In this document: in pieces, positions 3,570 to 23,598 of the stretch | Position numbering within the stretch: position 1 is the stretch's first letter | How the letters are laid out: the number at the start of each line of letters is the position of its first letter | Assembly (NCBI RefSeq): GCF_000756655.1 | Contig: NZ_ARXU01000009.1 | Span: forward strand, 62,001 to 126,000 | Direction: 5' to 3' | DNA: 64,000 bases | From: Alcanivorax jadensis T9 | Lineage (GTDB): Bacteria > Pseudomonadota > Gammaproteobacteria > Pseudomonadales > Alcanivoracaceae | Position numbers and translations under genes: made by a program | Notes under the pieces: model-generated | Database searches by the model: none | Seen by the model: the letters and a program-made list of their open reading frames with translations, nothing else | Told to the model about the DNA's origin: nothing

Positions 3570-3685
3570 AGTTGACAGTTGATAGTGGACAATTGACAGC
3601 TAAGGGCGTGCTGGCGCCAGCTATGTTACCTTGCTGCCAGTTTTTTTGTCTTTCGCTGTCAACTTTCAACTGTTAACTGTCAACT
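3570..3685. repeat. Heptad-repeat inverted element 1
   Basis: Two arms of 31 nt (3570-3600 and 3655-3685) are inverted copies matching at 26 of 31 positions when compared by eye. Each arm is built from degenerate 7-bp units close to AGTTGAC. The 54-nt centre has no ORF. The element fills the gap between divergent mutM and the hydantoinase gene and ends 3 bp before the latter's ATG, so it also occupies the leader of that gene. Confidence 0.75.
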
Positions 3686-3688
3686 GAT

Positions 3689-5668
3689 ATGTCCGTTTCC
3701 TACTGGCTCGGCGTCGACACCGGCGGCACGTTTACCGATTTTGTGCTGCTCGGGGACGGCGAGCCGCGTATTCACAAGGTACTGTCCACTCCAACAGCTC
3801 CCGAACAGGCGATCCTGCAAGGCATTGGTGAGCTTGGGCTCGATGACGCCATGGCCGCGGGCCAGCTGGCCATCGTCCATGGCACTACGGTGGCTACCAA
3901 CGCGGCGCTGGAAGGCAAAGGCGTCCACACGGTGCTGGTCACCAACCAGGGGCTGGAAGACATTCTGCGCATCGGCCGGCAGAACCGGGCAGAGCTTTAT
4001 AACCTGACACCGACACCGCCCCCCTCAGTGCTGGAGACCTTGCCCGTTGCCGGCACATCTTGCCGGCTTGATGCCCAGGGCCAGGAAGTGACACCACTCA
4101 GTGAAGCGAGCCTGTCACAACTGGTGGAGGAGGTGCTTGCCCACCAGCCGCAATCTGTGGCCCTGTGTCTGCTGTTTTCCTATCTGAATCCGGCCCATGA
4201 GCAACGGATCCGCGAGGCCCTGGAAGTCACCGGCCTGCCGGTCAGTGCCTCCCACACCATTCTGCCCACCCGGGGTGAGTACGAACGTGGCATAGCCACT
4301 TGGCTGAATGCCTGGCTGGCCCCCAAGGTAGCCAACTATCTGCAGCGCCTTCAGCAGGCGACAAGCCCCGCGCCACTGGCAATTATGCAATCCCACGGCG
4401 GCACCATTGCCTCCGAGCAGGCCGCCGATCTGGCGGTAAACCTGCTGCTATCCGGCCCTGCCGGCGGCCTTGCCGCCGCCAAGCGACTGGGCGAACAGCT
4501 CCAGCAGCCGCAACTGATGACCTTTGATATGGGCGGCACCTCCACGGACGTTGCCCTGCTGGACGGCGACCTGCGACTCACCCAGCAGGGCCACATAGGC
4601 CCCTATCCAGTGGCGGTTCCCATGGTGGACATGCATACCATCGGCGCCGGTGGCGGCTCACTGGCCTATGTGGATGATGCGGGCCTGCTCCACGTGGGGC
4701 CGCATTCCGCTGGCGCCGACCCTGGGCCAGCCTGTTATGGACGTGGCGGTGACAGGGTCACGGTCACCGACGCCAATGTAGTGCTCGGCCGTCTGCAACC
4801 GGATTTCGCCCTGGGCGGCTCCCTGACACTGGATGTGGCCTCCGCGAAAAATGCCATGCAGCAGCTGGCAACACAGCTTGGGCTCGGCATGGAGGAAACG
4901 GCAGAAGGGGTATTGGCACTGGCCAATGAACACATGACCCAGGCACTACGGGTGATTTCCATTCAGAAAGGCTTCGATCCAGCGGATTTTGCCCTGCTCA
5001 GTTTTGGCGGTGCCGGCGGTCTTCACGTCTGCGCCCTGGCAGACAATCTGGGCATGCAGAGGGCCATTGTTCCCCGTCGTGCAGGTGTCCTTTCTGCCGA
5101 GGGGCTGGTGTATGCACCCCGTAAACGCGAACACCTCCAGGCGCTGCCCGAGGCCTCTGACGACACGACACTGCAATCCCTGATCACAGCCCTGCAACAA
5201 CAGGGCAGCGAAGAACTGATTCAAGAAGGGGTCCCGGAGCGCGACATTCAGCACCAAGTCTTTGTGGATATGTGTTACCAGGGCCAGTCATCCGTATTAC
5301 AGATTCCCTGGCAGAGCGCCGCCGCAGAGCGAGAAAAACGGTTTCACGCGGCCCATGAGCAGCGTTTCGGTCACCGCCTGGCACTGCCGGTACAACAGGT
5401 GAATATCAGGGTACAAAGCCTGGCCACCACCTATCCACCTCCCCAGCCGCCCCTGCCTGCGCGAACCGGCCAGGCAAATCGCCAAGCGCAGCTGCCCGGC
5501 GTGGACCCGCTGGTGACAGTTTATGACCGCGAGACCCTGGGCGCAGACCAGACCCTACATGGCCCGGCATTGATCAGTGAAGCGGTGGGAACGACCTGGC
5601 TCGCCCAGGGCTGGCAGGCCTCGGTGGACCAGTCCGGCCATTTGTTGCTGGACCGCTCTGACGCCTGA
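3689..5668 (+). CDS. Hydantoinase/oxoprolinase family protein (HyuA-like)
   Basis: The 659-residue protein belongs to the ATP-dependent N-methylhydantoinase A / 5-oxoprolinase family. It opens with the phosphate-binding motif DTGGTFTD (residues 10-17) of the Hydantoinase_N domain. A second motif, DMGGTSTD, and the glycine-rich GAGGGS and GAGGLH segments mark the Hydantoinase_A domain, followed by a C-terminal region from about residue 500. Family members hydrolyse cyclic amides with ATP, usually with a HyuB-type partner. No hyuB gene lies beside it here, so the substrate is unclear. The ATG at 3689 has no good ribosome site because the heptad-repeat arm ends at 3685; a downstream start would remove the phosphate motif and is unlikely. 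Confidence 0.85.
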   Translation: MSVSYWLGVDTGGTFTDFVLLGDGEPRIHKVLSTPTAPEQAILQGIGELGLDDAMAAGQLAIVHGTTVATNAALEGKGVHTVLVTNQGLEDILRIGRQNRAELYNLTPTPPPSVLETLPVAGTSCRLDAQGQEVTPLSEASLSQLVEEVLAHQPQSVALCLLFSYLNPAHEQRIREALEVTGLPVSASHTILPTRGEYERGIATWLNAWLAPKVANYLQRLQQATSPAPLAIMQSHGGTIASEQAADLAVNLLLSGPAGGLAAAKRLGEQLQQPQLMTFDMGGTSTDVALLDGDLRLTQQGHIGPYPVAVPMVDMHTIGAGGGSLAYVDDAGLLHVGPHSAGADPGPACYGRGGDRVTVTDANVVLGRLQPDFALGGSLTLDVASAKNAMQQLATQLGLGMEETAEGVLALANEHMTQALRVISIQKGFDPADFALLSFGGAGGLHVCALADNLGMQRAIVPRRAGVLSAEGLVYAPRKREHLQALPEASDDTTLQSLITALQQQGSEELIQEGVPERDIQHQVFVDMCYQGQSSVLQIPWQSAAAEREKRFHAAHEQRFGHRLALPVQQVNIRVQSLATTYPPPQPPLPARTGQANRQAQLPGVDPLVTVYDRETLGADQTLHGPALISEAVGTTWLAQGWQASVDQSGHLLLDRSDA

Positions 5669-23415: not shown

Positions 23416-23436
23416 GTTAGAATCAAGCAGTCGAGG

Positions 23437-23598
23437 AGTTGAAAGTTCAAAGTGCAAAGTTGAAAAGCGTGGGCAAGGCATTTTGTATTCGGCAAGGTCG
23501 CACCCGCGTTCGCGCCAAGGATGAAGCGCGGAGCAAAATATTTTCGGTTAGCGTGGTGCCATCTTCACGTTTCAACTTTGAACTTTAAACTTTCAACT
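23437..23598. repeat. Heptad-repeat inverted element 4
   Basis: Arms 23437-23467 and 23568-23598 are inverted and match at 28 of 31 positions by eye. Units are close to GTTGAAA/GTTCAAA. The 100-bp centre has no ORF with a ribosome site. It occupies nearly the whole gap between algC and argB. Confidence 0.75.

Follow-up and report, generated by a model that had tools for sequence, protein, structure and literature searches.

Four inverted-arm elements in the window

The DNA analysed here, referred to below as the window, is a 64,000-nucleotide stretch of the Alcanivorax jadensis T9 genome (G000, 3.63 Mb; C9:62001-126000), which contains four essentially intergenic elements with paired inverted arms, three of them clearly built from tandem heptamers (Table 1). 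Elements 1 and 2 lie between divergent open reading frames (ORFs), whereas the ORFs on either side of elements 3 and 4 share a strand; element 1 spans nearly the entire gap between ORFs starting at 3560 and 3689, and element 2 overlaps the start of an ORF (17995-18684) by a few bases. We consider it likely that all four belong to a class of small hairpin elements akin to the intervening sequences (IVS) of 23S rRNA genes, in which the arms enclose a gene of the IVP (S23p) family: element 2 would be a decayed copy of the gene-carrying form, and elements 1, 3 and 4 copies without the gene.

Table 1. Elements with inverted arms in the window (window coordinates)
Feature	Heptamer dialect	Position	Strand	Basis
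Element 1, gene-less hairpin	GTTGACA	arms 3568-3598 and 3657-3687		26/31 inverted match
Element 2, probable IVP-element relic	CACGCAA-like	arms 18680-18710 and 18940-18970		25/31 inverted match
Truncated IVP (PF05635) coding remnant in element 2		18735-18899	-	profile match
Element 3, short hairpin with almost no interior	GCCTGAC	arms 20284-20314 and 20320-20350		23/31 inverted match
Element 4, gene-less element of ~160 bp	GTTGAAA	arms 23435-23465 and 23570-23600		29/31 inverted match

Arms were scored as the best ungapped inverted pair of 31-mers, and periodicity as the number of lag-7 matches (of 21) in each 28-nt arm. A sequence-only reading of the window had counted 26, 24, 23 and 28 matches in arms of 31 nt, and rescoring upheld all four pairs (Table 1); the complementary termini of every element are able to form a long stem, and the 28-mer inverted score of each was reached by none of 200 shuffles of the local sequence. 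That reading had also seen a recurring heptamer in every arm, which holds for elements 1 (15 and 17 lag-7 matches in the two arms), 3 (18 and 13) and 4 (15 and 16), while the heptamer of element 2 is weak (9 and 11). The RNA folds of elements 1 and 4 have z scores of -7.7 and -4.7 relative to shuffled RNA, and no Rfam family reaches its gathering score anywhere in the window, so that identity with an Rfam RNA is rejected. The window elements carry their tandem heptamers in intergenic DNA, as is characteristic of heptanucleotide tandem repeats (STRRs).

A scan of the window for 7-periodic inverted pairs recovers elements 1, 3 and 4 and not element 2, and the same scan at periods 5, 6, 8, 9, 10 and 11 yields no inverted pairs. 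The sequence-only reading had proposed that such pairs should be in excess over shuffled sequence, and they are: 400 kb of contig C3 of the same genome (11% of its length) contains 18 period-7 pairs, two of them containing CACAGAG, compared to none in each of three shuffles and none in a mirror control. At periods 5, 6, 8 and 10 the same 400 kb has no pairs, at period 9 it has seven (six from the CACAGAG family), and at period 11 two. Chance palindromes are thus rejected by shuffles of both the local sequence and the 400-kb stretch.

Elements 1 and 4 are short, non-coding and dispersed, with inverted ends, as are miniature inverted-repeat transposable elements (MITEs). The element 1 sequence AGTTGACAGTTGA occurs 13 times in the T9 genome, with its inverted partner visible in seven of the eight loci fetched (L001 and L002 being the two arms of one element). 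A query spanning element 4 and its surroundings finds 31 matches in the genome; of seven listed, the six besides its own locus all fall on the element itself, and the matches listed include nearly full-length relatives at 77% and 73% identity. In the gap that holds element 3, CACGCGGCATGCAACACG arms are present in L011 and a short relic in L010, and no such arms were seen in L012-L014 and L033. We note also that the GTTGACA dialect of element 1 (3568-3687) includes the -35-like hexamer TTGACA, which recurs in each of the arms that separate the divergent ORF starts; judged by its sequence, it might act as a promoter or replace one.

IVP genes between heptamer arms

Element 2 matches the PF05635 profile (23S_rRNA_IVP) over model positions 1-55 of 106 at 50.6 bits, which is over the cut-off (G000:C9:80735-80899); elements 1, 3 and 4 have no match to PF05635. 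At the gap corresponding to element 2, other Alcanivorax carry longer IVP genes between such arms. PF05635 matches are present in 16 of 17 Alcanivorax genomes and, in a sample of 299 genomes from the phylum, in 52.

For each of 90 IVP loci, placed in a common orientation, we determined the best inverted flanking pair and the best arm period. The loci comprise 60 from searches of the genus and phylum, 13 from 29 plasmid records (ten Cyanobacteriota and one each from Azospirillum, Gemmatimonadota and Bacteroidota), 16 from named genomes, and the T9 locus at nrdR (gene names used in this work, namely radC, coaBC, dut, algC, argB and nrdR, are those we presume these genes to have). The sample is non-random, consisting mostly of best-scoring loci, and it includes duplicates (L235=L123, L243=L136, L241=L133), a near-identical pair (L164/L165) and three tandem copies in one genome (L240/L244/L248). 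Inverted arms matching at at least 20 of 28 positions surround 80 of these loci (68/75 and 12/15 in two batches), and where arm periodicity is strong (at least 0.6) the period is 7 (66/90) or 8 (4/90) and no other. Among 240 random placements, drawn from DNA around dut of other genomes that is often coding and not matched to IVP flanks in composition, 38 have an inverted pair of at least 20/28 and none has strong periodicity. The gene-carrying form thus consists of about four or more heptamers, an IVP gene, and the same heptamers inverted, mostly within 415-570 bp. The sequence-only reading had suggested a process that generates or maintains the repeats locally. The repeats are no isolated local oddity; they belong to a recognisable class, whose arms flank IVP genes in several phyla. 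The loci with period-8 arms are L159, L170, L224 and L228.

At a single locus, L229 on an Azospirillum plasmid, the IVP gene lies inside a 23S rRNA gene, with 23S rRNA over the whole locus and arms of 25/28 at period 7; it is a classical IVS of the same architecture as the other IVP elements. This is one of 57 distinct loci scanned for rRNA (batches of 18, 20 and 20, with L149 in two), and a general location of IVP genes in rRNA genes is therefore rejected. Distances between IVPs and between their heptamers correlate across 66 loci (Mantel r=0.485, p=0.0005; L235, L243, L241 and L165 were left out). The similarity of IVP to Avd of diversity-generating retroelements is weak (E 0.0015, below that model's cut-off).

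Gene-less derivatives and heptamer dialects

We collected 83 seven-periodic inverted elements from sampled Alcanivorax DNA (3 from the window, 19 from C3 of T9, and 18, 12 and 31 from genomes G016, G015 and G012 respectively), of which 48 are 141-168 bp long. A GCCCGCG/CGCGGGC core is present in 31 of 64 interiors, compared to 1.8 expected, and is distributed by dialect (AAAGTTG 14/18, AAGCTAC 5/10, AAGCTGC 4/7). The core is absent from the GTTGACA/GTTAACA/ATTGATA dialect group, and the gene-less elements therefore form at least two families, one of which has a single core under several heptamers; one core for all dialects is rejected. The sequence-only reading had set the elements apart from MITE families on the grounds that these share sequence, and this distinction fails, as the gene-less elements do form dispersed families and several dialects share a core.

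The abundance of gene-less elements varies greatly among genomes. The IVP-less Alcanivorax genome G001 has no pairs in 200 kb, compared to 30 in 200 kb of G012, which has three IVP genes, although the G012 stretch was chosen where matches were known and its density is not a genome average. Dialect patterns have six matches in G001 and 27-261 in 16 other Alcanivorax genomes, and the GTTAA pattern alone has 248 in G003 versus four in G001; such sharp differences between species suggest bursts. More widely, pairs in a stretch of up to 20 kb surrounding dut are present in five of nine IVP-bearing and three of 41 IVP-free genomes (Fisher p=0.0026; 50 of 80 dut-locus genomes, relatedness uncorrected), with the three including the GC-rich loci L051 and L075, at which the pair may be chance. 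In the unrelated genome G246 the GGGATTC dialect of its IVP is dispersed, with 48 overlapping matches to a pattern taken from its own IVP arm versus 0-3 in 19 other IVP-bearing genomes.

Concerted change of the arms at the nrdR locus

The IVP ORF at the nrdR locus is 354 nt long in all ten genomes compared, while its arms change dialect. Its dN/dS is 0.03-0.22 in the 36 calculable pairs among 45 (nine pairs could not be calculated, and dS is mostly above 1), and the gene is under purifying selection. Turnover of arm pairs was followed at eight of the ten loci, omitting L147, which has one heptamer fewer, and L242, in which the register is unclear: in 14 of 31 pairs both partners have changed and in no pair just one of them, and double-change cells number 29, compared to 13.1 in shuffles and 0-4 when the partners are slid. 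In L147 and L001 the IVPs differ by one amino acid and the left arms by exactly one heptamer. These patterns are what whole-unit slippage within an arm, together with template switching between arms, would yield. The conserved architecture with a locus-specific heptamer described in the sequence-only reading is thus borne out, with heptamers turning over in both arms together.

Relationship to known systems

The closest resemblance is to 23S rRNA IVS of Coxiella, Leptospira and others, which have inverted termini around one IVP/S23p ORF, a stem of ~28 bp and a length of ~430 nt (PMC4990558). In Coxiella the inverted stem is 28 bp and its 5' arm has two to three tandem heptamers, the number varying between strains (PMC4990558). 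The window elements differ in that they, and 56 of the 57 IVP loci scanned, are outside rRNA genes (the window has no Rfam match), only element 2 has S23p/IVP coding sequence, as a relic, and gene-less derivatives with dialects that differ between loci are dispersed in large numbers. Published rRNA IVS are excised from the transcript by RNase III (PMC4990558), with which the stem length of the window elements would be compatible. The class to which they belong is best filed as an intergenic, multiplying variant of the IVS kind of element.

Other known repeats share some of these features. GGGAATC heptamers of Xanthomonas occur mostly as four units, and inverted pairs of them number 70 in one genome and 75 in another (Rehm 2015, PMC4692102). 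These and the Nostoc GGGGA(C/T)T heptamers are presented as simple repeats that form quadruplexes, and the available text does not connect them with IVP (PMC4692102). The P6b stem of the Nostoc trnL intron likewise has hairpin arms of degenerate 7-nt repeats that switch class, but it sits in a group I intron, and the available part of the report does not mention an IVP gene (PMC4476775). Geobacter metallireducens has 49 elements with four tandem heptamers, which are interpreted as predicted regulatory RNA elements, again with no IVP link in the part available (PMC2700814), and the TAACTGA heptamers are abundant and intergenic, but nearly all their sets are direct repeats and most lie immediately before a start codon (PMC4679880). 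REPINs are also non-autonomous intergenic hairpins of inverted short repeats, but they have shared repetitive extragenic palindromic (REP) sequences and RAYT transposases, as opposed to tandem-heptamer arms and IVP (PMC3116915). Because their arms differ by dialect and consist of tandem heptamers, membership of the heptamer elements in a shared-sequence REP family is rejected. The sequence-only reading knew of no described family of this kind: pieces of it are in print for Coxiella, Xanthomonas and Nostoc, and in the open-licence PMC literature we found no paper joining them, nor one joining IVP/S23p with heptamer inverted arms generally. What that reading observed is thus confirmed, and its interpretation is partly supported. 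The structure of the elements, their association with IVP and the joint turnover of both arms are directly observed, movement and a part played by IVP being inferred.

Exchange at fixed intergenic sites

Of 12 T9 elements, nine have an element of the sister genome G016 (94% identity) within 200 bp, compared to 1.64 expected from random intergenic placement; intergenic space was mapped crudely from ORFs, and the null does not allow for shared descent. Two of the T9 elements and one further partner are of the CACAGAG kind and satisfy the 7-periodicity test as well. At these nine sites the matching elements are identical in two cases, similar in one and different in six. Gene-carrying elements are exchanged too: IVP lineages that share only 46-53% protein identity substitute for each other at two loci whose flanks are 81-90% identical. 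Other palindromes join in this exchange, namely GTAGGAGC hairpins and CACAGAG 9-mer elements, and heptamer elements are found nested inside the loops of such hairpins. The comparison of the same gaps in relatives that the sequence-only reading had suggested thus reveals both presence or absence and heptamer turnover at orthologous positions.

Within rRNA, IVS are described as taking the place of the tetraloops of helices 9, 25 and 45 (PMC4990558). In view of the site swaps, the nesting in loops and the location of rRNA IVS at tetraloops, we prefer entry at hairpin tips together with hairpin replacement as the route by which elements would reach their sites. Allelic recombination through the flanks is an alternative that can spread such swaps.

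REP-like hairpins of the form GTAGGAGCG(G/T)CGCT... trade places with heptamer elements at orthologous gaps, sometimes enclosing them (T9 C3 loci L179, L181, L183, L185, L188 and L189 and the matching G016 and G015 stretches). A ~160-bp repeat at L185 (near 136.4 kb of T9 C3) is present in T9 and absent in G015, and the same repeat is present in G016 and absent in T9 at the site matching 64.85 kb of C3; it is another mobile intergenic element.

A second gene family between inverted arms

Genes of the PDDEXK_3 family, which we take to be the one also named GxxExxY, have inverted arms of at least 20/28 at 28 of 32 loci (L232, L233 and L274-L303; this set had no control of its own). Their arms contain CACAGAG- or CGCAGAG-like sub-repeats at a looser spacing of 9-10 nt; periodicity is at least 0.55 at nine of the 32 loci, with period 10 in seven and period 9 in two, and at none is 7 the best period at this level. 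The T9 genome contains CACAGAGG pairs without the gene and has no PF13366 match. If confirmed with proper controls, this would mean that arm architecture goes with the enclosed gene family.

Proposed mechanism and alternative explanations

We propose that the arms pair as a long RNA stem that would be a substrate of RNase III, as published for rRNA IVS, and that a copy lying in a transcript may be cut out in this way rather than tolerated whole. In DNA the arms may form a cruciform or a single-strand hairpin, and slippage by units within an arm with template switching between arms would keep them both complementary and repetitive. The pentameric IVP ring may bind the repeats, and the unit length would be kept while the letters drift because of this binding. 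IVP could also help copies to enter hairpin tips (rRNA helix 45, or the loops of intergenic palindromes) or to replace an existing hairpin. A broader generalisation, possible but one that we hold only tentatively, is that transposase-free hairpin elements with repeat-built inverted arms are widespread, each kind built around one small protein: IVP, a four-helix-bundle pentamer, with units of 7 or 8 nt, and PDDEXK_3/GxxExxY with looser ones of 9-10 nt. They would spread by exchange of hairpin for hairpin at the tips of rRNA helices, intron P6b and intergenic palindromes, with the unit length reflecting the footprint of the protein and not polymerase slippage.

A number of observations weigh against the mobile, IVP-associated elements that we favor. 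We found neither a target-site duplication nor a transposition intermediate nor a transposase (no search aimed at transposases was made), so mobility is inferred from the way in which elements are dispersed and exchanged. Published data on Coxiella suggest a lack of S23p expression in that organism (PMC4990558), and the nrdR-locus IVP is inherited vertically, which is also how a domesticated gene would behave. Of the 90 IVP loci, ten show no inverted arms that reach the threshold, and in another ten the arms fall short of strong periodicity; the sample includes a single Bacteroidota locus and a single Gemmatimonadota locus, and in the Gemmatimonadota locus the period is 8. The period-8 loci are scattered over the IVP tree, which leaves a single origin of the 8-nt period unsupported. 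The IVP-heptamer correlation drops to 0.281 when pairs more than 70% identical are removed, and shared ancestry of gene and element would by itself be enough to give such a correlation. In the turnover analysis, further pair types number 19, which is no excess over shuffles (21.6). The GCCCGCG core is found in none of 15 interiors of the GTTGACA/GTTAACA/ATTGATA group, and the exact 7-mer is absent from the two window elements long enough for the test. The nine IVP-bearing genomes of the dut comparison include five Alcanivorax/Alloalcanivorax and are hence non-independent, and the dispersed copies in G246 are in part solo arms, with three of eight tested being inverted pairs, one of them 726 bp wide. 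Finally, the commonest of three dialects is that of the nrdR-locus IVP in only five of ten genomes (omitting G007, whose dialect is outside the three patterns, and genomes without a reading of the nrdR arms), so that the case for strict control of the dialect in trans by this IVP is inconclusive and we do not adopt it.

The concerted change of both arms, and the difference of exactly one unit between the L001 and L147 arms, would also be expected if mutational dynamics alone were at work, with slippage expanding the short tandem repeat of an imperfect palindrome (the polymerase favoring 7 nt), template switching correcting it, and IVP being incidental; the idea of slippage is in print, from work cited by Rehm 2015 (PMC4692102). 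We regard this as unlikely, since it leaves unexplained the presence of arms around IVP genes, the rarity of pairs in IVP-less genomes, the co-divergence of heptamers and IVP, and the lack of period 7 in the inverted arms of PDDEXK_3 genes. If the elements were ordinary MITEs whose parent DNA transposon is missing from these genomes or has gone unnoticed in them, with IVP as a passenger, they would have the inverted ends, uniform size (48/83 at 141-168 bp), dispersal, genome-specific copy numbers and partly common core that we see. Their ends would not be expected to lack a common sequence between dialects, nor to surround IVP genes both in several phyla and within rRNA. The orthologous gaps read show no apparent target duplication, although this was not measured systematically and clean empty sites are lacking, and in the fetched loci it is IVP that lies between matching arms (no search for transposases was made). 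This explanation seems to us quite unlikely.

It is also conceivable, but in our judgement very improbable, that these are host RNA hairpins, such as terminators, mRNA stabilisers, attenuators or regulator sites, selected gap by gap with only the stem mattering. The strong RNA folds of elements 4 and 1, the change of pairs on both sides, and the replacement of hairpins by hairpins at the same place would all fit. Host RNA hairpins sit poorly with presence or absence at orthologous gaps among relatives, with positions between divergent ORFs (1, 2), between same-strand ORFs (3, 4) and elsewhere among cas or nrd genes, with the lack of an Rfam family at gathering score in the window, and with the link to IVP genes.

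If the IVS-related class that we favor is correct, it provides one explanation for over-represented bacterial heptamers, the Xanthomonas and Nostoc heptamers, the trnL P6b stem and the tandem heptamers of an rRNA IVS, as well as a context for IVP/S23p, whose structure is solved (PDB 2gsc) but which has no known function. Should IVP act on the arms, mobility would here be achieved without any recognised transposase. The joint rewriting of two arms in related species would also serve as a natural assay for slippage and palindrome-templated mutation.

Genomic settings of other IVP genes

A Candidatus Thiodiazotropha genome has three tandem IVP copies spaced 375 bp apart (L240, L244 and L248), with TTTTGAATT-like arms outside the array. 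Among the cyanobacterial plasmids, L219 has its IVP gene between ribonucleotide reductase subunit genes, L220 and L223 have theirs between cas6 and cas4, and in L224 it lies between cas10 and a cmr3-like gene.

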